NCBI RefSeq assembly: GCF_001880325.1
Contig: NZ_CP016312.1
Span: forward strand, 1,426,001 to 1,490,000
Direction: 5' to 3'
Length of the DNA: 64,000 bases
Source: Thermus brockianus
Lineage (GTDB): Bacteria; Deinococcota; Deinococci; Deinococcales; Thermaceae
The position numbers and the translations under genes were made by a program. Positions 2,802 through 51,782 of this stretch are shown piece after piece (within the stretch, counting starts at the first letter, position 1; each line of letters opens with the position of its first letter). A model generated the notes under the pieces. It made no database searches. It saw only the letters and a list, made by a program, of their open reading frames with translations, and was not told the DNA's origin.

Positions 2802-4157
2802 ATGAGGGGGGTCCTCGAGGCCCTGCACCAGGGGGACTACGACACCGCCATAGAGCGCCTTACCCGCAAGGCCCTCTTCGGCTCCAAGGAGGAGGCCCGG
2901 GAGGCCCTCCTGCTCCTCGCCGAGGTGCATAGCCTCTATGGGGAGGAGGGGCTGGAGCGGGCCCACCAGGCCCTGGAGGAGGCCTATGAGCTTGGGGGGT
3001 TGGAGTTTAACCCCCTCTACCGGGCCCTCTTGGCGGAGCTTTTGGCCCTGGAGGGCCGAAGCGAGCGGGAAGTCCTTCCCCTTCTCCTCCCCACGGGGGA
3101 TCCCCGGGCCCTCTACCACCAGGCCCAGGCCCTCTTTTACCTAGGCCGCTTTGAGGAGGTTCTTGGGACGCTTAAGGAGGGGCTTCCCGCCTTTTTGGCC
3201 TGGCGGGCGGAGGCCCTTAAGGGGAGGGCTTTGGAGCGGCTTGGCCGCCACCGGGAGGCGGCCATGGCCTACGAGCGGGGGGCGGAGCTCGCCCTGGGGC
3301 TTGAGCGCTACTGGCTCCTCCTGGACGCCGCCGCCATGTGGGTGGAGGCGGGGGAGGGGGAAAGGGCCCTCCTCGCCTTGGAGGAAGCGAGGGAGGAGGT
3401 GGGGGAGATGGAAGGCGCCGAAGACGCCGCCACCCGCCACTACCTCCTGGCCCGGGCCCATCTCCTCCTGGAAAACCCCAACCGCGCCCTCGAGGAGGTG
3501 CAGGAGGCCCTGAGGAGGGAGGAGGAAAGCGGCCACAAGGCCTACGGCACCCCTCTCCTCCTCGGCCAGGCCCTCCTGCGCCTAGGCCGCTACCCGGAGG
3601 CCATGGCCGCCTTTCAGGAGGCCCTGGCGAGGGCCCAAGGGGAGGAGCGCCCCTATGTCCTCCACGAGATGGGGGTGGCGGCCTTGGACCAGGGGGCCTA
3701 CCTGGAGGCGGAGGAGTACCTCCGGCGCTTGGTGGAAGAGGAGGGCTACCCTTACCGGGCCCAGGCCCTGGCGGACCTGGCGGAGGCCCTTTACCGCCAA
3801 GGGCGTTACCAGGAGGCGGAAAGCGTGGCCAAGGAGGCCATGGCCCAGGGGGCGGAGGCGGCGGGGGAGCTCATCCTGGGCCACGTGGCCTACGACCTCA
3901 TGCACCTGGAGGAGGCCTTGGCCCACTACCGCAAGGCGGCGGAGCTTTCCGAGGAGGGAAGCCGGGAGTGGGTGGGGGCCCAGGAGATGGTGGTGGATAC
4001 CCTGGCCCAGTTGGGCTACCGCTCCCCCGAGGAGATCCTGGCCCGCGCCGAGGCGGTGCTTCCCCATGTCCACCCTGCCGACGAGTGGCACCAGGCCCTC
4101 CTCGCCTACCGGGAGCGGGCGGAGGCCATCCTGCGCCAGGGCAGGCGGCCCAACTAG
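2802..4157 (+). CDS. tetratricopeptide-repeat protein of unknown function
   Basis: A 451-residue, almost entirely helical protein built of repeated TPR-like units; clear ones include ALYHQAQALFYLGRFEEVL, KGRALERLGRHREAAMAYE, LLLGQALLRLGRYPEAMAAF and LADLAEALYRQGRYQEAES. There is no signal peptide or membrane segment, so a cytoplasmic protein-protein interaction scaffold is the most that can be inferred. It is read divergently from ftsH with a 71-bp intergenic region holding both promoters, and overlaps the 3' end of the convergent DUF4388 gene by 4 nt. No partner or process can be assigned from sequence. Confidence 0.85.
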   Translation: MRGVLEALHQGDYDTAIERLTRKALFGSKEEAREALLLLAEVHSLYGEEGLERAHQALEEAYELGGLEFNPLYRALLAELLALEGRSEREVLPLLLPTGDPRALYHQAQALFYLGRFEEVLGTLKEGLPAFLAWRAEALKGRALERLGRHREAAMAYERGAELALGLERYWLLLDAAAMWVEAGEGERALLALEEAREEVGEMEGAEDAATRHYLLARAHLLLENPNRALEEVQEALRREEESGHKAYGTPLLLGQALLRLGRYPEAMAAFQEALARAQGEERPYVLHEMGVAALDQGAYLEAEEYLRRLVEEEGYPYRAQALADLAEALYRQGRYQEAESVAKEAMAQGAEAAGELILGHVAYDLMHLEEALAHYRKAAELSEEGSREWVGAQEMVVDTLAQLGYRSPEEILARAEAVLPHVHPADEWHQALLAYRERAEAILRQGRRPN

Positions 4158-17255: not shown

Positions 17256-17975
17256 GTTGCAAGAGATGCTTCCCCGTAAGGGGATTGCGACAAGCTAGGA
17301 AGGTTCTGGAGTCTAGGAACGCCAAGAACTCCACTAGTTGCAAGAGATGCTTCCCCGTAAGGGGATTGCGACACCATCTCGTTGTAGGTGGCGAAGACAA
17401 CCTCTGTGTTGCAAGAGATGCTTCCCCGTAAGGGGATTGCGACTGTTTGATTAGGGCGACCTCTTCCCGCATTTGTGTTTGGTTGCAAGAGATGCTTCCC
17501 CGTAAGGGGATTGCGACAAGATTTTTCTAGAGGCGTAGGAGTAAATGAAAGCCAGGTTGCAAGAGATGCTTCCCCGTAAGGGGATTGCGACTCCGCGATC
17601 CCCCACGCCTCAGTCATGATCTCCTGCGCCTTGTGGTTGCAAGAGATGCTTCCCCGTAAGGGGATTGCGACTGGCGGGCACGGATGATGTGCACGCCCTT
17701 GAAGACGGGCATCAGGTTGCAAGAGATGCTTCCCCGTAAGGGGATTGCGACACTTCGGAGGACGCCCTTACCACGCGCCCGTTCGCCCCGAGTTGCAAGA
17801 GATGCTTCCCCGTAAGGGGATTGCGACAGGTAGGGCACCCCGTACCCACCCCATACCTCCTGATAAGTTGCAAGAGATGCTTCCCCGTAAGGGGATTGCG
17901 ACTGTCCTCCCAGGGTAAAGGGTGTCTACCTAGCCGATAACCGGTTACAAGAGATGCTTCCCCGTAAGGGGATTG
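17256..17975 (+). CRISPR. CRISPR array, 10 repeats and 9 spacers, no cas genes nearby
   Basis: Repeat of 36 nt, starting GTTGCAAGAGATGCTT and ending CCCCGTAAGGGGATTGCGAC, with an internal CCCC/GGGG stem. Repeat starts: 17256, 17337, 17408, 17482, 17556, 17636, 17716, 17792, 17867 and a degenerate last copy at 17944 (GTTACAA..., ending ATTGACG). The first nine are identical. Spacers are 45, 35, 38, 38, 44, 44, 40, 39 and 41 nt. The last eight repeat bases ATTGCGAC equal the 5' tag of T. thermophilus type III crRNAs, so transcription is rightward and the degenerate repeat is the leader-distal, oldest end. The wide spacer-length range also fits a type III-associated array. cas genes must act in trans from elsewhere in the genome. 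Confidence 0.97.
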
Positions 17976-36125: not shown

Positions 36126-36201
36126 GGGGCCGTGGCGCAGCTGGGAGCGCGCCTGAATCGCACTCAGGAGGTCACGGGTTCGAGTCCCGTCGGCTCCACC
36201 A
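36126..36201 (+). tRNA. tRNA-Ala(CGC)
   Basis: 76 nt with encoded CCA. Acceptor stem GGGGCCG/CGGCTCC, D stem GCGC/GCGC, anticodon stem CCTGA/TCAGG with loop ATCGCAC (anticodon CGC, reads GCG), T stem ACGGG/CCCGT with loop TTCGAGT. The prophage integrase gene begins 78 nt downstream, so the 3' part of this gene is the likely integration target. Confidence 0.97.
36179..36201 (+). other. candidate prophage attachment site in the tRNA 3' end
   Basis: Integrases of this type usually recombine within the T arm and acceptor stem of a tRNA gene and restore the gene. Here the tRNA is intact and the integrase lies directly 3' of it. The exact core can only be set by finding the matching repeat at the other prophage end; no second copy was noticed in the window. 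Confidence 0.5.
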
Positions 36202-36278: not shown

Positions 36279-37412
36279 CTAACCGATGTCCAGCACCCAC
36301 CCCCGCCGCTCCTCCTCCAGGAGGTGGCGGTAGATGCCCAGGGTGATGTTGGGGTTAGCGTGGCCCATGCGCTCGGCCACCAGCTCCACGGGAGCCCCCT
36401 GAGCGAGGAGGAGGGAGCCGTAGGTGTGCCGGAGGTCGTGGACCCGCACCTGGGGGAGACCGAGCCGGGCGAGGAGCCTGCGGAGGAAGTGGTCCGGGGC
36501 GTCCGGGTGGACGGGCTGGGAGGGGTCCCGCCCCGGGAAGAGCCAGCTCCTCCGCGCCTCCTCCTCGCTGAGCCCCTGGACGCTCTCGCGGTAGGCCCGC
36601 AGGCGCTCCAGGGTGGTGGGGGGGATGGGGACCGCACGGTAGCCCGAGGAGGTTTTGGGTTCGGAGACAACCCCCTTCCCGCCCACCTTCGCCCACGCCC
36701 GGCGCACGTGGAGCACCCCCTCCTCGAGGTCCACGTCTTCCCACCGGAGGCCCAGAGCCTCGCCCCTTCGGAGCCCGCAGGTGAGCATGAGCCGGAGGGC
36801 GATGGCGAGGGGGGAGGGGTGCTCGTCCAGCGCGGCGAGAAGTCTCCTAGCCTCATCGGGCTCGAGGGTCCGGCCCGGACTCTTCCTCGGCGGCCCCTTC
36901 ACCTTCACGGGAGCCACAGGGTTGCGGTGGATGAGCTCCATCCGCACGGCGTCCTCAAAGACGGCGTGGAGGAGCCAGCGGATGTTCTTCATGGCGTGCG
37001 GGGTGAGCCTGAGCCCGTCCAGGTGCCGCCGGACGTGGAGAGGTTGGACGCTCTGGAGCCGCATGCGCCCAAAGCGGTCGTAAGCCGTGGGGTCCCTGAG
37101 GGAGGGTATGGCCTTCGCCAGGTGGTAGCGGTAGCTCTCCAGGGTGCGGGGGCGAACCTCCGCCGCCTTGCGCTTGAGCCAGTCCTCGGCCCAGTCCCGC
37201 ACGGTGATCTGGGCGGGCTCGGCGAGGAGCCCCCGGTGGTGGAGCACCTGGAGCTCGGCGAGCTTACGGGCGACCTCCTGGCGGGTCCTGCCGTAGACGA
37301 CCTTCCGCCGGGGGTTCCCGCGAGGGGTGTAGCCCACCGTGATGGCCCCGACCCAGAGCCCGTCCTTCCGCTGGTAGATGGACCCTTCTCCTGGAGGACG
37401 CTTGCGGGCCAT
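36279..37412 (-). CDS. int: tyrosine-type phage integrase
   Basis: Site-specific recombinase that inserts and excises the prophage. 377 residues: N-terminal arm-binding region (GEGSIYQRKDGLWVGAITVGY...GRTRQEVARKLAEL), a SAM-like core-binding domain (about 65-170), and the catalytic domain with Arg 215 (TCGLRRGEAL), Lys 253, His 325 and Arg 328 (HDLRHTYG), His 351 (MGHANPNIT) and nucleophile Tyr 361 (GIYRHL). All six residues are intact. The ATG at 37412 gives the family start and directly follows (1 nt) the upstream gene's stop. Expression probably comes from the repressor-side promoter. Confidence 0.95.
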   Translation of the reverse strand: MARKRPPGEGSIYQRKDGLWVGAITVGYTPRGNPRRKVVYGRTRQEVARKLAELQVLHHRGLLAEPAQITVRDWAEDWLKRKAAEVRPRTLESYRYHLAKAIPSLRDPTAYDRFGRMRLQSVQPLHVRRHLDGLRLTPHAMKNIRWLLHAVFEDAVRMELIHRNPVAPVKVKGPPRKSPGRTLEPDEARRLLAALDEHPSPLAIALRLMLTCGLRRGEALGLRWEDVDLEEGVLHVRRAWAKVGGKGVVSEPKTSSGYRAVPIPPTTLERLRAYRESVQGLSEEEARRSWLFPGRDPSQPVHPDAPDHFLRRLLARLGLPQVRVHDLRHTYGSLLLAQGAPVELVAERMGHANPNITLGIYRHLLEEERRGWVLDIG

Positions 37413-37413
37413 G

Positions 37414-38166
37414 TCAGCGCAGGTGCTGGCTCCAGGACTCGTAGTCCCGGTGGCTGACCTCCAGGGTGTAAGACGTGGGCGGGTTGCCCAAGAGGACGAA
37501 AACGGCTTCCCCCACCCTCCGCTCCAAGGGAGCACCCTGCCGCACCTGGCCCAGGGCTTTCTCGGCCCACGCCTTGGACTCCAGCTGCGGGTTGCCGTCA
37601 AAGGGGGCGGTGGCGAGGTAGGGGAGGAGCCAGGACGCCGTGGGCTCGGCGTTCAAACCGGATACGCTGACCTCGTAATGCAGCACCTTGTCCCCGTAGG
37701 TGGCGATCTCCACCCACATCTCCGCCCCGGTGTCGGGGTCCACCTTCACCGCCCGGTGGTACTTCACCCCAGGGATAACGTTGGAGGGCTCCATGGTAAA
37801 GCGGAAGCCGTAGGGCTCCTTCTCCAGGTTCAAGGTGATGTCTACCCAGAAAAGCCCGGGTAGGACAGGGGGCGGAGGCATTTCCGCCTCCTGGGTTTTG
37901 GGGGGTTCGCTGGCCTGCTCCGTTTGCGAAGGTTGGGGAGATTGTGCAGGTTGCGAAGGTTGGGCAGATTGAACAGATTGGGCCGATTGGGGGTTTTGCG
38001 GTGTTTGCGGTGGAGGAATGAGGACCAGTCCGATGAGCGCCACCACCGCACCGAAGGCAAACATCCCCAGCCTTTCCTTCAGGGTCAGCGGCTTGGCACC
38101 CTTGGGCGTCTTGGAGAACGCCGCCGCCAGGAGCAGCCCCCCAAGGATGAGGAGAACCCAACCCAT
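37414..38166 (-). CDS. prophage membrane protein with Ser-Gln-rich linker, unknown function
   Basis: 250 residues. Two N-terminal transmembrane helices (about 2-17 and 33-50) joined by a short basic loop, then a low-complexity linker of about 45 residues with a three-residue period (SAQ, SVQ, SAQ, PSQ, PAQ...) encoded by 9-bp tandem repeats, then a globular C-terminal domain of about 150 residues (FWVDITLNLEKEPYGFRFTMEPSNVIPGVKYHRAV...). Topology suggests an outward-facing or linker-tethered domain. It sits between integrase and repressor on their strand, so it is probably expressed in the lysogen; superinfection exclusion or lysogenic conversion are guesses. Confidence 0.65.
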   Translation of the reverse strand: MGWVLLILGGLLLAAAFSKTPKGAKPLTLKERLGMFAFGAVVALIGLVLIPPPQTPQNPQSAQSVQSAQPSQPAQSPQPSQTEQASEPPKTQEAEMPPPPVLPGLFWVDITLNLEKEPYGFRFTMEPSNVIPGVKYHRAVKVDPDTGAEMWVEIATYGDKVLHYEVSVSGLNAEPTASWLLPYLATAPFDGNPQLESKAWAEKALGQVRQGAPLERRVGEAVFVLLGNPPTSYTLEVSHRDYESWSQHLR

Positions 38167-38175
38167 GGCTACCTC

Positions 38176-38832
38176 CTACATCTTCCGCACCAGGGTGGCC
38201 GCCACCCCGAGGATGCGGTCGTGCTCGGTTAGGGGAACGGGAGGGTGGTCCGGGTTGTCGGAGTAGAGGTACCAGGAGCCGTTGTAGCGCTGGAGCCGCT
38301 TTACCACAACCCCGTCCCAGTGCACATGCACCGCCACGATGCGCCCGGGCTCCGGGGCTCCCCCCGTCCAGAAGACCACGATGTCCCCGTCCCTGAGCGT
38401 GGGCTCCATGGAGTCTCCCTTGACCCGCACGGCGAAGAGCTCGTCCTCCCGTTTACCCCTGAGCTCGGGGATGTGAAGGGTGATGTATTCCGCGCCCTCG
38501 TTCCACATCGGCGGCCCAGCCCCGGCGTCTATGACAGGAATACGATACCGCACCACGGGGATGGACCCGGGGATTTCCGCACCAGGAAGCTGGATGCCGG
38601 TTTCGCGGGAGAACTCCTCGGGGGTCCATTGGAGAACCCGGAGAAGCCGGTTGAACGCTTCCGGGTCCTTAGCCCAGAGATAGCGGATGGCATTCTCGGG
38701 GTCGGGAAGGACCTGGGTTGCCAGCCACGAAGCGCTGCGCCCTACCATACGGCTCACCTTTGGCTGTGATAGCCCCAGCTCGCGGATGCGCTTGCGGATA
38801 GCCATAGCGGCTTTTTCTTCTGTAGCCACCAC
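38176..38832 (-). CDS. CI-like phage repressor with S24 (LexA-type) peptidase domain
   Basis: 218 residues. N-terminal helix-turn-helix region (about 11-45: IRKRIRELGLSQPKVSRMVGRSASWLATQ) and C-terminal S24 domain with a likely Ala-Gly cleavage site in IDAGAGPP (about 103-104), catalytic Ser 141 (KGDSMEPTLRDGD) and Lys 178 (GVVVKRLQ). It should maintain lysogeny by binding the operators upstream and self-cleave on RecA activation. The start is uncertain: the GTG at 38832 has a GAGGGG upstream; an in-frame ATG at 38805 would shorten the protein by nine residues but leave the HTH intact. Confidence 0.88.
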   Translation of the reverse strand: MVATEEKAAMAIRKRIRELGLSQPKVSRMVGRSASWLATQVLPDPENAIRYLWAKDPEAFNRLLRVLQWTPEEFSRETGIQLPGAEIPGSIPVVRYRIPVIDAGAGPPMWNEGAEYITLHIPELRGKREDELFAVRVKGDSMEPTLRDGDIVVFWTGGAPEPGRIVAVHVHWDGVVVKRLQRYNGSWYLYSDNPDHPPVPLTEHDRILGVAATLVRKM

Positions 38833-40381: not shown

Positions 40382-40396
40382 TAGAGGAGGTGCGTG

Positions 40397-41269
40397 ATGG
40401 CGCACGAGCTGGCGAAAACGACTGAAGAGCGGATGGCGGTCCTGGAGAAAGTCGTGGTGGAGGGCGACCTCTCCAAGCTCACCCCGGCGGAGCGGGTCAT
40501 CTACTACCGCAACGTCTGCGAGTCCCTGGGCCTCAACCCCCTCACCCGCCCCTTTGACTACATCGTGCTCAACGGGCGGCTCACCCTCTACGCCCGCAAA
40601 GACGCCACGGACCAGCTCCGCCGCATCCACGGCGTGAGCGTTCGCATCGCGAGCCGGGAGTTCATTGAGCCCCTTGGCCTCTACGTGGTGGTGGCCCGGG
40701 CCACCACGGCGGACGGGAGGGAGGACGAGGCCATCGGCGCGGTGAGCGTGCGCGGTCTCTCGGGAGAGGCGCTGGCGAACGCCATCATGAAGGCCGAGAC
40801 CAAGGCGAAGCGCCGGGTGACCCTCTCCATCGTGGGGCTGGGGTGGACGGACGAGTCCGAGGTGGACACCATCCCCGGCGCCCAGACGGTCCGGGTGGAC
40901 CCCGAGACCGGGGAGATCCTGGACGCTCCCGCCCGGCCCGCCCCCGAGGAGAAGGAGAACGGAGGGGCCACAGGGAAGCAGCTCAAGCTCCTCGCGGTCC
41001 TCATGGGAAAGGTGGGCCTTGGCCGCGAGGAGGCTCACCGCTACGTCTCCGCGCTCCTCGGGCGGCAAATCTCCTCCGCGAAGGACCTCAGCAAGGAAGA
41101 GGCCAGCCGGGTGATTGACCATCTCCAGCAGGTCGCGGGGTGGTTTGACGCCATGGAGGTCCCCGAGGACCTGCGCCGGGAAGTCATGACCGACGCCGCC
41201 CGGCACGGGGACACGTTTGACTCGGAGGAAACCCTCCGGGTGGTGGTGGAGGGCTACAAGGCTACCTAG
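40397..41269 (+). CDS. possible phage single-strand annealing (RecT/Redbeta-like) protein
   Basis: 290 residues. The N-terminal ~165 residues have the look of RecT-type recombinases: VIYYRNVCESLGLNPLTRPFDYIVLNGRLTLYARKDATDQLRRIHGV, and a conserved KAETKAKRRVTLSIVGLGWTDESEV. The rest is an acidic linker and a helical C-terminal domain (GREEAHRYVSALLG...). No exonuclease partner is seen next to it, which weakens the assignment; a replication-linked DNA-binding protein is an alternative. GGAGGT lies before the ATG. Confidence 0.45.
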   Translation: MAHELAKTTEERMAVLEKVVVEGDLSKLTPAERVIYYRNVCESLGLNPLTRPFDYIVLNGRLTLYARKDATDQLRRIHGVSVRIASREFIEPLGLYVVVARATTADGREDEAIGAVSVRGLSGEALANAIMKAETKAKRRVTLSIVGLGWTDESEVDTIPGAQTVRVDPETGEILDAPARPAPEEKENGGATGKQLKLLAVLMGKVGLGREEAHRYVSALLGRQISSAKDLSKEEASRVIDHLQQVAGWFDAMEVPEDLRREVMTDAARHGDTFDSEETLRVVVEGYKAT

Positions 41270-41273
41270 AGCA

Positions 41274-41301
41274 GGGAGGGGGGCTGAGCCCCCCTCCCTT
41301 T
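41274..41301 (+). terminator. hairpin terminator between early genes
   Basis: GGGAGGGGGGC-TGA-GCCCCCCTCCC, a perfect 11-bp stem followed by TTT, then directly the AAGGAGG ribosome site of the next gene. Short T-tract, so partial termination or attenuation is likely. Confidence 0.55.
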
Positions 41302-41312
41302 AAGGAGGAGAG

Positions 41313-42500
41313 ATGTACCGGTGGAACCATCACATATGGGGCAACCGCGAACTCAGCGCGGCTGAGAAGCTGGTCCTACTGTACCTCCTTGAACGGGCCA
41401 ACAGGGACGGCATTTGCTGGCCGTCCCTCAACACCATCGCCCGGGACACGGGGCTGACCCGGCGGGGGGTCATCGGGATCCTTCGCCGGTTGAGGGACGC
41501 CGGGTACATTACCTGGGAGCAAGTCGGCCAGACTAACACCTACCGCGTGGCCGTGGACCGACTGGTGAACCCCGTTCACCAGGATGGTGAACCAGATTCA
41601 CCAGGGGTGGTGAACCAGATTCACCAGGTGGTGAACGGCATTCACCAGGGTGGTGAACCAGATTCACCAGGTGGTGAACGTGGTTCACCGGGGGTGGTGA
41701 ACGGCGTTCACCCAAACCATTCAATAGAACCACCCATAGAACCACCCATAGAACCATCTCCCCCCCCTATAATCCCCCCCCAAAGCCCGGAACCGGTGAA
41801 GGAGGAGGGGGAGGGGGGGGAGGTCAAAAAGGCCGAACCAGGAAGACCAAAAGCTTCCCCTTTACCGGAGAAGCCAAGCAATGGGGCATCTCAGACTATC
41901 CCGGGCGGCGTCGCTGGAGCCATCCCAATCGGCGCCGCCTTGGCGAGCATGGGAGGCCGCTTCCGCTGGCCCGAGCCCCCGGAGGCCATGGTGCGGGCCT
42001 TGAAGGAGGCCGGAGTCTGGGAGCGCCTGGCCTCCCTCCGGCGCTACGCCAGGGACCAGCGGGCGTGGCTGGAGTGGCTGGCCGGGCCTCTAGCGGCCCT
42101 GTGGCGGGGCAACCCTGAAGCCTTCCCCGCCGCCATTGGTGAGGCGCTGGACGCCCTGGCCTCGAGGCCCGAGGTGAAGGACCCCCTCTCCTACCTCCTC
42201 GCCGTGGCCCGGAAGCGGCTCACGCCCAACGGCGAGGCGGCGCGAGGTGAGGAGGCCCCCGCCGCCCGGGCGCTCCGGCTCCTCCGGGAGGGGCAGGAGC
42301 CGTCAGGCGAGGACCTGGTGGAGCTCCTCCGTCAGCGGGGCGTGCCCACCAAGGCTGGCCTAGGGCGCTACAACGGCATGTCCGCCGATGGGGAGTGGGT
42401 CTACGCCCGCCTAGGTGGCGACATCATCGCCGTCTCCAGGAGAGAGGCGATCAGGAGGCTCGTGGACGGTGGTCATGAGGAGGTGGCTCATGCTGGATGA
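41313..42500 (+). CDS. phage replication initiator (O-like) with internal origin repeats
   Basis: 395 residues. N-terminal winged helix (about 1-85: LSAAEKLVLLYLLERANRDGICWPSLNTIARDTGLTRRGVIGILRRLRDAGYITWEQ), the HTH_36 type of replisome organisers. Then a disordered Gly/Pro/His/Ser-rich linker (about 85-200) encoded by seven palindromic repeats, then a helical C-terminal region (about 210-395) that may bind host replication proteins. The layout, a DNA-binding domain followed by iterons inside its own gene, mirrors lambda O. No phage helicase gene is seen, so the host helicase would be recruited. Confidence 0.75.
   Translation: MYRWNHHIWGNRELSAAEKLVLLYLLERANRDGICWPSLNTIARDTGLTRRGVIGILRRLRDAGYITWEQVGQTNTYRVAVDRLVNPVHQDGEPDSPGVVNQIHQVVNGIHQGGEPDSPGGERGSPGVVNGVHPNHSIEPPIEPPIEPSPPPIIPPQSPEPVKEEGEGGEVKKAEPGRPKASPLPEKPSNGASQTIPGGVAGAIPIGAALASMGGRFRWPEPPEAMVRALKEAGVWERLASLRRYARDQRAWLEWLAGPLAALWRGNPEAFPAAIGEALDALASRPEVKDPLSYLLAVARKRLTPNGEAARGEEAPAARALRLLREGQEPSGEDLVELLRQRGVPTKAGLGRYNGMSADGEWVYARLGGDIIAVSRREAIRRLVDGGHEEVAHAG
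41564..41712. repeat. seven palindromic iterons, candidate phage replication origin
   Basis: Seven copies of GGTGAAC-NNN-RTTCACC at 41564, 41586, 41609, 41630, 41652, 41673 and 41696 (17 nt each). Start-to-start distances are 22, 23, 21, 22, 21 and 23 nt, about two helical turns, so all dyads face the same side of the helix. They lie in two different reading frames of the host gene (coding GEPDSP in one and VNQIHQ or similar in the other), so the DNA, not the peptide, is conserved. Confidence 0.8.
41724..41759 (+). repeat. tandem 12-mers next to the iterons, possible unwinding element
   Basis: Three copies of ATAGAACCACCC (third ends ATCT), in the least GC-rich stretch nearby (41713-41760). 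Adjacent A/T-richer direct repeats are typical of origin melting regions; here they encode IEPP repeats. Confidence 0.45.
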
Positions 42501-42864
42501 CGCCCCTGAGCTCGTCCTAGATCTCGGCCCCTGCCCGTGGTGCGGCGAGGAGGAGCTGGAGTACGCGGGGAACGGCCTCGCCGCCGGGCGCAGGCCCCCC
42601 TCCCTCTGCTGCGAGCGCGGCGCTGTGGCCTCCCTCCTCCGGCACGCGGCGGCGGTGCGGGCTACGGCGGAGAAGGAGCGGGAGGAAGTGGCCGAGGAGT
42701 ACCGCGCCCTCCTCCAGGACGCCACCAAGCAGTTTGGGTCCCAGGCGCTCCTCGCCGTCCTGGACGAGGTGGCGCGCGCTGGCGTCATCGGCTGGAGGAG
42801 CGCCGGAGCGGTGCGGGCGGCTCTTGAGCGGCGTGAGAGGACGCCCAGCGGGACTGGGAGGTAG
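42490..42864 (+). CDS. small zinc-finger phage protein (Lar-like N-terminus)
   Basis: 124 residues. The N-terminus LGPCPWCGEEELEYAG...SLCCERG resembles restriction-alleviation Lar-type zinc ribbons; the rest is a long helix (AAAVRATAEKEREEVAEEYRALLQDATKQ). An AGGAGG lies seven bases before the ATG at 42490, inside the end of the replication gene. Function not assignable with confidence. Confidence 0.5.
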   Translation: MLDDAPELVLDLGPCPWCGEEELEYAGNGLAAGRRPPSLCCERGAVASLLRHAAAVRATAEKEREEVAEEYRALLQDATKQFGSQALLAVLDEVARAGVIGWRSAGAVRAALERRERTPSGTGR

Positions 42865-42879
42865 CGCTGGAGGTGGGCC

Positions 42880-43293
42880 GTGGGGGAGGTGGTGGTGGCC
42901 CTCTGCCTAGGGACCGGGACCTGGGAGGCCGTGGTGCTCGCCGGAGGTAGGGTCGTGGGCTACGGCTCCAGCCCGGACTACGGCGTGGCCGTGAAGGCGG
43001 CCATTCTGGAGGCCCGGGCTAAGGGCGTCCACGAGGAGGAAGGGATGAAGATTCTCGGACGGGCGGAGGAGGCGCTAGCGCATCTCGCGGAGGCGGTGGG
43101 GTGTTACTGCCCCCCCGAGCTGGCCCTGGAGGCCGAGAAGTGGCTGGACGACCTGCGGGAGGCGCTCAGGGAGGGCGCGGAAGCGAGCCGGGCGCTAGAG
43201 GCGTGCCGCGCCCGGGAGCGCTTGTCATCCCAGGAGCGGTTGCGGCTCAAGGAGGCCGTCATTAGAGCGCGGGAGATTTTGGAGCGGATATGA
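42880..43293 (+). CDS. phage protein of unknown function
   Basis: 137 residues. A short beta-rich start (VVVALCLGTGTWEAVVLAGGRVVGYGSSPDYG) recalls a ribonuclease-H-like first strand set but lacks further motifs; the remainder is helical, with HLAEAVGCYCPPELALEAEKWLDDL. GTG start. Coupled by ATGA overlap to the next gene. Confidence 0.5.
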   Translation: MGEVVVALCLGTGTWEAVVLAGGRVVGYGSSPDYGVAVKAAILEARAKGVHEEEGMKILGRAEEALAHLAEAVGCYCPPELALEAEKWLDDLREALREGAEASRALEACRARERLSSQERLRLKEAVIRAREILERI

Positions 43294-43460
43294 CCCTGGC
43301 GGACCTGCTTTTGGCCTACGTTCTCGCCATGCTCACGGGGCTCGCTGTCCTGCTTCGCCCTCGCCGCGAGCCCCTGCCGGAGGGGGCGAGCGTGGGGTTT
43401 TTGGTTCTCGTGGGGGTTTTATGGCTAATGTTCTTCCTCGCGCTCGTTCTGTGGCGCTAG
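43290..43460 (+). CDS. small two-helix membrane protein
   Basis: 56 residues: hydrophobic helix LLLAYVLAMLTGLAVLL, a basic turn RPRREP, and a second helix VGFLVLVGVLWLMFFLALVLW. The ATG overlaps the previous stop (ATGA) and the end overlaps the RusA gene by 10 nt, so it sits in a tight operon. Small size and topology would fit an early membrane-modifying protein; nothing more can be said. Confidence 0.55.
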   Translation: MTLADLLLAYVLAMLTGLAVLLRPRREPLPEGASVGFLVLVGVLWLMFFLALVLWR

Positions 43461-43801
43461 AGGCCACTCTTCCCTGGCCCCCGAGCGTGAACCACTACTG
43501 GGCGGCCAGGGGGAATGGCCGCTACCTCGCCCCCCACGCCCAGCGGTGGCACAAGGAGGCGTGGGCCACCCTGCGCGCCGCGTGGCGGGGGAAGCCCATG
43601 CGGGGGGAGGTGGCGGTGCTCGTCGTCCTTCATCCCCCGGACCGGAGGAGGCGGGACCTGGACAACATCCTGAAGGCGGTCCTGGACGCGCTCGTGCACG
43701 CGGGGGTGCTCCAGGACGACTCCCAGGTGGCGGAGCTTCACGCCGTGCGGCGGGAGGCGTGCCGTCCTGGACGGGTGGAGATACGGGTGGAGAGATTGTG
43801 A
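43451..43801 (+). CDS. rusA: RusA-family Holliday junction resolvase
   Basis: Structure-selective endonuclease that resolves four-way junctions during phage recombination or before packaging. About 116 residues: LPWPPSVNHYWAARGNGRY, HAQRW and the active-site acidic cluster DRRRRDLDNILKAVLDAL (Asp 69, Asp 71) and QDDSQV (Asp 89/90), matching the catalytic aspartates of the family. The GTG at 43451 gives the family N-terminus; an in-frame ATG at 43421 is possible. Last gene of the early block. Confidence 0.85.
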   Translation: MALEATLPWPPSVNHYWAARGNGRYLAPHAQRWHKEAWATLRAAWRGKPMRGEVAVLVVLHPPDRRRRDLDNILKAVLDALVHAGVLQDDSQVAELHAVRREACRPGRVEIRVERL

Positions 43802-48950: not shown

Positions 48951-50267
48951 ATGACACGGCATGCCCTGACCATCCCCGTCCCCGGGGGCGAGCCCCCCCG
49001 CGAGTTTCGCATCTTCCCCTTCGGTCGCGTGGAGACGACCAAGGGGGTCTTTCTCTTTGACCAGGAGGCGGCCCGCCGGGTGATGCAGGCCTGGCGGGAC
49101 TACGGCAACCGGCTCTCCATTGACTACGAGCACCAGGCCCTGGAGCCCGTGTCCAACGGCCCCGTCCCCGCCGCGGGGTGGTTTGACCTCGAGGTCCGGG
49201 AGGACGGCCTCTGGGCGGTGAACGTGGAGTGGACCCCGAGGGCTATGGAGCTTTTGCGCAACCGGGAGTACCGCTACTTCAGCCCCGCCTTCTACGTGGA
49301 CGAGGAGGGGCGCATCGTGGAGCTCATCAACCTCGCCCTCACCAACCTCCCGGCCACCAAGCGCATGGAGCCTCTGGTGGCGAAGGCGGTGGGGTTTGAG
49401 GCGGGTCCGGTCCACGAGGGCTCCTCGTGGGACGCGGACGCCGCCGTGGCCCGGGTCCGGCGCTGGGCCAGCCGGGACGGGAGCGGGGACAAGGAGACCA
49501 TAGACTGGGCGAGGTACCGCAAGGCTTTCGCCTGGTACGACGCCACGGACCCAGAGAGTTTCGGCTCCTACAAGCTCCCCCACCACGACGTGGTGGACGG
49601 GCGGCTTGTGGTGCACAAAAGGGGGGTCTACGCCGCCGCCGCCGTTCTGCAAGGGGCGCGTGGTGGCGTGGACATCCCAGAGGCGGAGCTGGAGGCGGTG
49701 AGGAGGCACATCGCGGCCCACTACCACCAGTGGGGCGAGAAGGCCCCCTGGGAGCGGGAGGAGACCAGGAGGACGAGGATGGAGAAGGTTCTGAGGCTTT
49801 TAGGGCTTAGGGAGGACGCTGGCGAGGCCGAGGCCGAAGCGGTTCTCCGCAGGCTCATGGCGTTCCCCGAGAGGGTCTTTGCCCTCACGGGGACGCGCCG
49901 GGAGGACGAGGCCGAGGCGGTTCTCCTGGCCTGGAAGCAGGCCCACGAGGAGCTGCCCCGGGTCCAGGAGCGGCTGGCCGCGCTGGAGGAGGAGCGGAGG
50001 AAGGAGCGGCTCGCCCGCCTCATTGAGGAGGGGAAGAGGGAGGGCAAGCTCACCCCGGCCATGCTCTCCTGGGCGGAGAGCCAGACTCCCGAGGCGCTGG
50101 AGGCGTTTTTGCGGGTGGCCCCCAGGGTGGTCCGGGCGAACGGTCTGGAAGAGCCGGAACCTGGTGGGCTGGACTGGAACCAGATGACGCCCGCTCAGCG
50201 GGCGGAGCTCTACAGGAAGGACCCCGAGGCCTACCGCGCCCTGCGGCGGAGGGCCCTCGGGTACTGA
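48951..50267 (+). CDS. Mu I-like prohead protease fused to scaffold region
   Basis: 438 residues. N-terminal ~170 match Mu gp32 (I) protease: RIFPFGRVETTKGVFLFDQEAARRVMQAW...LSIDYEHQALEP, AAGWFDLEVREDGLWAVNVEWTPRAMELLRNREYRYFSPAFYVDEEGRI. A middle segment (IDWARYRKAFAWYDATDPESFGSYKLPHHDVVDGRLVVHKRGVYAAAAVLQGARGGVDIPEAELEAVRRHIAAHYHQ) resembles a domain found in other prohead proteases. The C-terminal ~150 residues are charged coiled coil (ERLAALEEERRKERLARLIEEGKREG), typical of scaffolds. Cuts itself and scaffold during capsid maturation. Confidence 0.85.
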   Translation: MTRHALTIPVPGGEPPREFRIFPFGRVETTKGVFLFDQEAARRVMQAWRDYGNRLSIDYEHQALEPVSNGPVPAAGWFDLEVREDGLWAVNVEWTPRAMELLRNREYRYFSPAFYVDEEGRIVELINLALTNLPATKRMEPLVAKAVGFEAGPVHEGSSWDADAAVARVRRWASRDGSGDKETIDWARYRKAFAWYDATDPESFGSYKLPHHDVVDGRLVVHKRGVYAAAAVLQGARGGVDIPEAELEAVRRHIAAHYHQWGEKAPWEREETRRTRMEKVLRLLGLREDAGEAEAEAVLRRLMAFPERVFALTGTRREDEAEAVLLAWKQAHEELPRVQERLAALEEERRKERLARLIEEGKREGKLTPAMLSWAESQTPEALEAFLRVAPRVVRANGLEEPEPGGLDWNQMTPAQRAELYRKDPEAYRALRRRALGY

Positions 50268-51412: not shown

Positions 51413-51782
51413 CCTGCGCGCCCTCGGGCTTCCCGAGGCGGTCCTGGCCTCCATCCCGGAGGCGGAGCAGGAGGCGGCCCTCGAGGCTGCCTCCGCCCTG
51501 GCGGACTCCTACCTCCGGGCCCGCTACGACCTCCCCCTCGCTTCCTGGGGGCGCGGGCTCACCCGGGCCGTGGCCCTCATCGCCGCCTACGACCTCATGA
51601 GCCGGAGGGGGTACGACCCCACCCGGCCCGGGCAGGAGAACCTGCGCATGCGCTATGAGGACGCCATCCGCTGGCTGGAGGGGGTGGCCGCAGGGAAGGT
51701 GGACCCCGGGGTAGAGGACGCTACCCCCGAGGTTTCCTCCACCGCCGTCCAGGCCGTGACCCGCGAGCGGAGGTGGCCGTGA
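51390..51782 (+). CDS. head-tail connector, Mu gp36-like (DUF1320)
   Basis: 130 residues; DUF1320 pattern YASRADLRALGLPEAVLASIPEAEQEAALEAASALADSYLRARYDLPLASWGRGLTRAVALIAAYDLMSRRGYDP. Located directly after the capsid gene as in Mu. Confidence 0.85.
   Translation: MPYASRADLRALGLPEAVLASIPEAEQEAALEAASALADSYLRARYDLPLASWGRGLTRAVALIAAYDLMSRRGYDPTRPGQENLRMRYEDAIRWLEGVAAGKVDPGVEDATPEVSSTAVQAVTRERRWP

Follow-up and report, generated by a model that had tools for sequence, protein, structure and literature searches.

A candidate lambda-type replication origin within the initiator gene of a Thermus prophage, and residue-base covariation across HTH_36 initiators

Results

The initiator gene and its prophage setting

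The DNA analyzed here is a stretch of 64,000 nucleotides from Thermus brockianus, referred to as the window, whose numbering is used throughout. It includes a prophage-like region that contains an Xre-type regulator, an excisionase-like gene, and a large terminase, together with the following genes.

36279-37601, minus strand: integrase of the prophage-like region
38176-38832, minus strand: CI/LexA-like repressor of the prophage-like region
40394-41269, plus strand: RecT-like annealing protein of the replication module (PHROG 4171, E 5.9e-8, C-terminal part only)
41313-42500, plus strand: replication initiator gene, 395 amino acids, HTH_36 / "replication initiation O-like" (Pfam, PHROG)
43421-43801, plus strand: RusA Holliday-junction resolvase of the replication module (Pfam RusA, E 5.3e-19)

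A tRNA gene at 36126-36198 adjoins the integrase gene and is likely the attachment site; an RNA family scan returned only this tRNA and no relevant family. A CRISPR array with the repeat GTTGCAAGAGATGCTTCCCCGTAAGGGGATTGCGAC lies at 17560-17960.

Residues 13-66 of the initiator match HTH_36 (PF13730) with an E value of 3.8e-15 and 55.9 bits, against a curated cut-off of 25, and its best PHROG matches are O-like replication initiation proteins. In Pfam searches at E values up to 0.1, it matched neither PF04492 (Phage_rep_O) nor PF06970 (RepA_N), and DnaD_N was matched only below its cut-off. The protein is predicted to be organized as follows.

41313-41567, plus strand: N-terminal winged-helix domain, residues 1-85 (AF2 pLDDT at least 95 over most of residues 11-80)
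41460-41498, plus strand: codons of the recognition helix, residues 50-62 (AF2 model)
41982-42221, plus strand: helical C-terminal domain, residues about 224-303 (AF2 pLDDT mostly 78-93, between disordered stretches)

Foldseek yielded only generic winged helices and none at E values up to 0.001, CodY, MarR, ArsR, AspA, and TubR being among the matches, and a sequence search of the PDB also found generic winged helices only. The C-terminal domain, whose counterparts occur in the homologs of phages Cumys and phiMa and of G049 and G046, may serve as a replisome-contact domain. No helicase was recognized near the initiator gene, no helicase loader or P-like neighbor was identified, and a promoter scan gave nothing informative for the locus.

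Seven palindromic iterons read in two frames

The first-pass annotation of this DNA had described seven palindromes spaced by 21-23 bp at 41564-41712, and an exact search for GGTGAAC-NNN-RTTCACC retrieved precisely these, with no further match elsewhere in the 64-kb window and a chance expectation of 0 in 100 dinucleotide-preserving shuffles.

41564-41580, unstranded: iteron 1, GGTGAACCCCGTTCACC (pattern match)
41586-41602, unstranded: iteron 2, GGTGAACCAGATTCACC (pattern match)
41609-41625, unstranded: iteron 3, GGTGAACCAGATTCACC (pattern match)
41630-41646, unstranded: iteron 4, GGTGAACGGCATTCACC (pattern match)
41652-41668, unstranded: iteron 5, GGTGAACCAGATTCACC (pattern match)
41673-41689, unstranded: iteron 6, GGTGAACGTGGTTCACC (pattern match)
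41696-41712, unstranded: iteron 7, GGTGAACGGCGTTCACC (pattern match)

All seven are nearly perfect, and their spacings are, in order, 22, 23, 21, 22, 21, and 23 bp. Relative to the ATG at 41313, their phases are 2, 0, 2, 2, 0, 0, and 2, so that four iterons are read as VN.VH or VN.IH and three as GE..SP (VNPVHQ, GEPDSP, VNQIHQ, VNGIHQ, GEPDSP, GERGSP, and VNGVHP from iterons 1 to 7). The third frame would contain TGA; thus, both usable frames are occupied. As the first-pass annotation had recognized, the same DNA is read in two frames into unlike peptides, and the constraint therefore acts on the DNA, a conclusion that the homologous arrays, the residue-base covariation, and the adjoining unstable region described below also bear out. 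The iterons lie inside the coding sequence between the DNA-binding and C-terminal domains, as expected for a lambda-type origin, and the linker encoded by them and by the DNA beyond them is predicted to be disordered in the AlphaFold model. The possibility that the palindromes are CI operators was rejected, as no such site occurs elsewhere in the window.

A 34-nt CRISPR spacer carried by plasmid 4 of Thermus thermophilus TTHNAR1 (L216, NZ_LR027520.1) is identical to window 41588-41621 within the iteron array, and further full-length spacers of the same CRISPR array match 41146-41179, 49924-49961, and 51735-51771.

An unstable region adjoins the last iteron

41712-41762, unstranded: proposed DNA-unwinding element, abutting iteron 7 (nearest-neighbor stability)
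41724-41759, plus strand: three 12-bp repeats, ATAGAACCACCC, ATAGAACCACCC, and ATAGAACCATCT (repeat search)
41760-41781, plus strand: C8-TATAAT-C8 tract, with similar tracts in the Lalka and Cumys genes (sequence comparison)

The three A/T-richer tandem repeats reported earlier to follow the array were likewise recovered. Those at 41724-41735 and 41736-41747 are identical, that at 41748-41759 shares 10 of 12 positions, and they consist of 50-67% A+T as compared with 32% for the window. The stretch 41712-41762, about 52-54% A+T, has a nearest-neighbor stability of -1.32 kcal/mol per bp. No 50 bp within the 2.3 kb of 41000-43300 are less stable than those from 41712, which hold the repeats, and among separated places in the 36-64 kb part they rank third in instability. 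The low duplex stability that marks a lambda-type origin is, in other words, found directly beside the iterons. Of 97 related ORFs, 42 have 12-bp repeats downstream of the iterons, as against 0 in control stretches.

Related arrays in other Thermus phages

The genes of Cumys, phiMa, and Lalka8/27a/27b are built like that of the window, with a winged helix followed by a palindrome array, and Cumys and phiMa also have a related C-terminal domain; the C-rich tract of the window is shared by the Cumys and Lalka genes. The half-sites vary by phage. Between the winged helix and the C terminus, Lalka phages carry about ten GTGCAC palindromes, Cumys has mixed GTGAAC/GTGCAC half-sites, and phiMa and G049 have GTCAAC/GTAAAC half-sites. 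Lalka differs further in possessing its own helicase and primase. Comparison of homologous initiators, which had been proposed as a check, hence revealed a conserved layout with other half-sites, and it also removed the claim that palindromic iterons are new for Thermus phages, even though the palindromic arrays of Cumys, phiMa, and Lalka are not mentioned in the portion of the phage description consulted (PMC11437467). No homolog lacking the repeats was seen among the close full-length ones.

Riverbug, an isolated phage, is the reverse case. Its protein is 100% identical to that of the window over residues 64-395 and all seven iterons are kept, yet most of the winged helix is replaced by RusA-derived sequence. 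Because no other winged helix of the HTH_36 initiator family occurs in the complete genome and the phage carries its own helicase and primase genes, Riverbug probably initiates replication differently, and the retention of the iterons despite the loss of most of the winged helix suggests that a phage with another, acquired replication module can probably do without the origin. The replacement replication gene Riverbug_47 (L215 26979-27689, annotated as primase) has direct and inverted linker repeats of the GTAGTCAGRTAGTC type, which are perhaps a second, unrelated self-embedded origin.

In Lalka27b and Lalka27a (L014 and L015), the annotated initiator start falls inside the iteron array, and an in-frame ATG at 3001 restores the missing winged helix; Lalka27a also has about 29 extra codons, part of the array having been duplicated. 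In G046 (L007), a homologous C-terminal domain is preceded by an N-terminal helix-turn-helix and a linker that are both different, an arrangement that suggests module exchange, and no such iterons were seen in the gene. A weak match in G034 is not within a CRISPR array.

HTH_36 initiators commonly carry arrays

The complete window protein retrieved no relative from IMG/VR, and a diverse 13-row alignment gave no usable conserved stretch; closer alignments did work. A scan of IMG/VR for two tandem GTGAAC palindromes returned 64 contigs from both high- and low-GC phages, and in most of them a winged-helix initiator carries the sites in its linker; the palindromes shared an ORF with the winged helix in 55 of 67 contigs selected by DNA pattern alone. 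The 174 sites were distributed over two open frames (108 and 66), with none in the third.

To avoid circularity, 106 HTH_36 ORFs, including those of annotated phages, were selected by the winged helix alone. At least three tandem palindromes of 6-3-6 geometry were present in 98 of them with a tolerant finder, and in 42 of 49 after dereplication, as compared with 0 in codon shuffles. A strict finder, allowing up to one arm mismatch, detected arrays in 70/106 and left two seeming exceptions, L137 being out of register and L128 a probable chance match; the tolerant finder was adopted after these had been seen and was fixed before the held-out test described below. The layout is shared by many phages that are not related to one another, with about ten half-sites across the 98 initiators with arrays, including GTGAAC, GTGAAA, GTGCAG, GTGCAC, GTGACA, GGGAAC, GTCAAC, GTCTAC, and CGGAAA. 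Site spacings cluster at 21-24, 33-37, 42-45, and 66-69, near multiples of 11 bp, and in 92% of cases the 60 bp 3' of the last site exceed the ORF in A+T content. Among plasmid ORFs, 4 of 11 had no usable array (L206, L207, L211, and L212) and L214 had none that was clear; the plasmid arrays, some with few sites, broadly fit the rule described below, with R55 accompanying C5 in Thermaerobacter, Sulfitobacter, and Spartinivicinus.

Recognition-helix residues covary with half-site bases

All winged-helix columns were scanned for association with all half-site bases, the half-site register being set by bases 1-2 and site number only. The three strongest associations were residue 51 with base 3 (z 12.3), residue 55 with base 5 (9.3), and residue 54 with base 2 (7.4), and all three residues, which are R51, I54, and G55 in the window protein, are near the start of the recognition helix. 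The association of residue 54 is the least independent because the register favors G1/T2. After dereplication at 80% (n=43), R or K at 51 accompanied G3 in 35/35 cases and other residues a non-G base in 8/8, while R55 accompanied C5 in 8/8 and other residues a non-C base in 35/35. With dereplication at 50% (n=12), both tables were still perfect (p 0.002 and 0.015, respectively). A tree from which the helix columns had been excluded showed as many residue changes as base changes (6/6, 7/7, and 4/4), and independent tree contrasts agreed, but few of them fell on well-supported branches (3, 1, and 1), where agreement was seen for the first two associations. The window, with R51, G55, and GTGAAC, fits the rule and belongs to the set from which it was derived.

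Predictions for residues 51 and 55, but not for the 54-base 2 pair, were fixed in advance and applied to held-out ORFs, of which only 43 of 116 had at least three sites of 6-3-6 geometry; many of the others had zero-spacer or other repeats, two sites, or an early end. R/K51 predicted G3 in 17/17 cases, R55 predicted C5 in 2/2, and residues other than R at 55 predicted a non-C base in 41/41. The converse for residue 51, that other residues go with a non-G base 3, failed in 16 of 26, mainly in Ser51-Lys54 proteins with GGGCAG sites. R/K54 was found with G2 in 23/24 and other residues with T2 in 19/19. The residue-base rule predicts well in one direction but falls short of a complete code, and the covariation lends indirect support to the view that the N-terminal domain of the initiator itself binds the iterons. 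The linkers of four Ser51 initiators (L239, L254, L264, and L266) have zero-spacer palindromes and 12-mers such as TGTAGGCCCAGA, apparently a different site geometry within the HTH_36 family.

Discussion

The array, its coding in two frames, the O-like PHROG match, and the RecT-like and RusA neighbors lead us to consider the locus to be the replication origin of a temperate Thermus phage, located inside the initiator gene as in lambda, with a probability of roughly 0.85. The arrays of relatives, their contrast with codon shuffles, the covariation, and the unstable 50 bp after iteron 7 point in the same direction. Of the first-pass proposal, the lambda-O-type origin and the binding by the winged helix are strengthened by the homologous arrays, the covariation, and the unstable neighbor, but the novelty attached to palindromic iterons is lost, and so is the difference from lambda that they were taken to represent. 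Lambdoid iterons lie in the initiator gene, each is an inverted repeat to which an O dimer binds, and they adjoin an A+T-rich region that melts (PMC5043065, PMC7466680). The window locus shares inverted-repeat iterons within the initiator gene next to a low-stability region, and differs in the number of sites (seven versus four, or six in Stx phages), in an unrelated site sequence, and in having no Phage_rep_O match and no recognized adjacent P-like loader. Phage-specific cognate iterons are known from P22 and phage L (gene 18) (PMC8022706). In RepA_N plasmids such as pSK41, the origin is central in rep, encodes a linker, and is bound by the N-terminal winged helix, and pPR9, whose HTH_36 N-terminal module is related to a phage replication protein, yields a working minireplicon that is compatible with pSK41 (PMC5703833). 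Most RepA_N iterons are semi-palindromes centered on a poly-A tract (PMC7145576). The likeness of the initiator gene to these plasmids is in the origin within rep and the N-terminal winged helix; its iterons are 6-3-6 palindromes, RepA_N is not matched in Pfam, and DnaD_N is matched only below cut-off. The origin layout is thus already known from lambda, and the new element is the covariation across the HTH_36 family, of which no description was found in the literature searched.

We propose that the N-terminal winged helix binds the palindromes via R51 and its neighbors in the recognition helix, probably as one dimer per palindrome. With sites two helical turns apart, the dimers would be loaded side by side on one face of the DNA, and the assembled complex might then melt the adjoining low-stability region of 12-bp repeats. 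The C-terminal domain would subsequently recruit the replicative helicase, presumably that of the host since none was recognized near the initiator gene, and initiation would follow.

The palindromes could instead be an operator through which the initiator mainly blocks its own transcription, with the true origin elsewhere. The fold resembles those of transcription repressors such as CodY, MarR, and ArsR, and protein bound to an array within the coding sequence would stand in the way of polymerase; such autoregulation could, moreover, coexist with an origin. As the whole explanation it is improbable, because the array lies 250 bp into the gene rather than at a promoter and adjoins an exceptionally unstable region, the copy number and helical phasing recur across the family with 12-bp repeats downstream, and the PHROG matches are replication initiators. 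There is a similarly small, slightly lower chance that the origin is real yet dead in the window prophage. Riverbug demonstrates that the module can be broken and bypassed while the iterons and C terminus remain in a protein otherwise 100% identical; the window ORF, however, is intact, its R51 and iterons fit the family rule, and its seven sites are nearly perfect. Very improbable is a partition centromere whose binding protein would be a winged-helix protein of the AspA or TubR kind. Both are among the Foldseek matches, albeit not below E 0.001, and repeat arrays are usual at centromeres, but the element, which has an integrase and a CI-type repressor, is a temperate phage in integrated form, a ParA- or TubZ-like neighbor was not recognized, and the O-like protein has a C-terminal domain set apart from the rest. 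The idea that the repeats are merely a low-complexity protein linker without a DNA role agrees with the predicted disorder of the linker but is already largely refuted by the unlike peptides from the same DNA in two frames and by the codon-shuffled linkers of relatives, which never reach three sites with the tolerant finder.

With the origin reading preferred, the locus offers Thermus vector work a precise and testable candidate origin from a thermophilic phage, in which the same few hundred bases encode both the origin and the specificity of its initiator. Such initiators are often annotated only as helix-turn-helix or hypothetical proteins. We consider it somewhat better than an even bet that phage HTH_36 initiators represent a large class of self-contained origins, for the most part undescribed, in which residues 51, 54, and 55 set bases 3, 2, and 5. 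With the covariation, particular residues can be paired tentatively with the bases that they read, and origin prediction and incompatibility therefore become testable across many phages and phage-plasmids. If such a class with such a rule exists, the origin sequence and compatibility group would be predictable from the protein, and an origin could be found from sequence alone.
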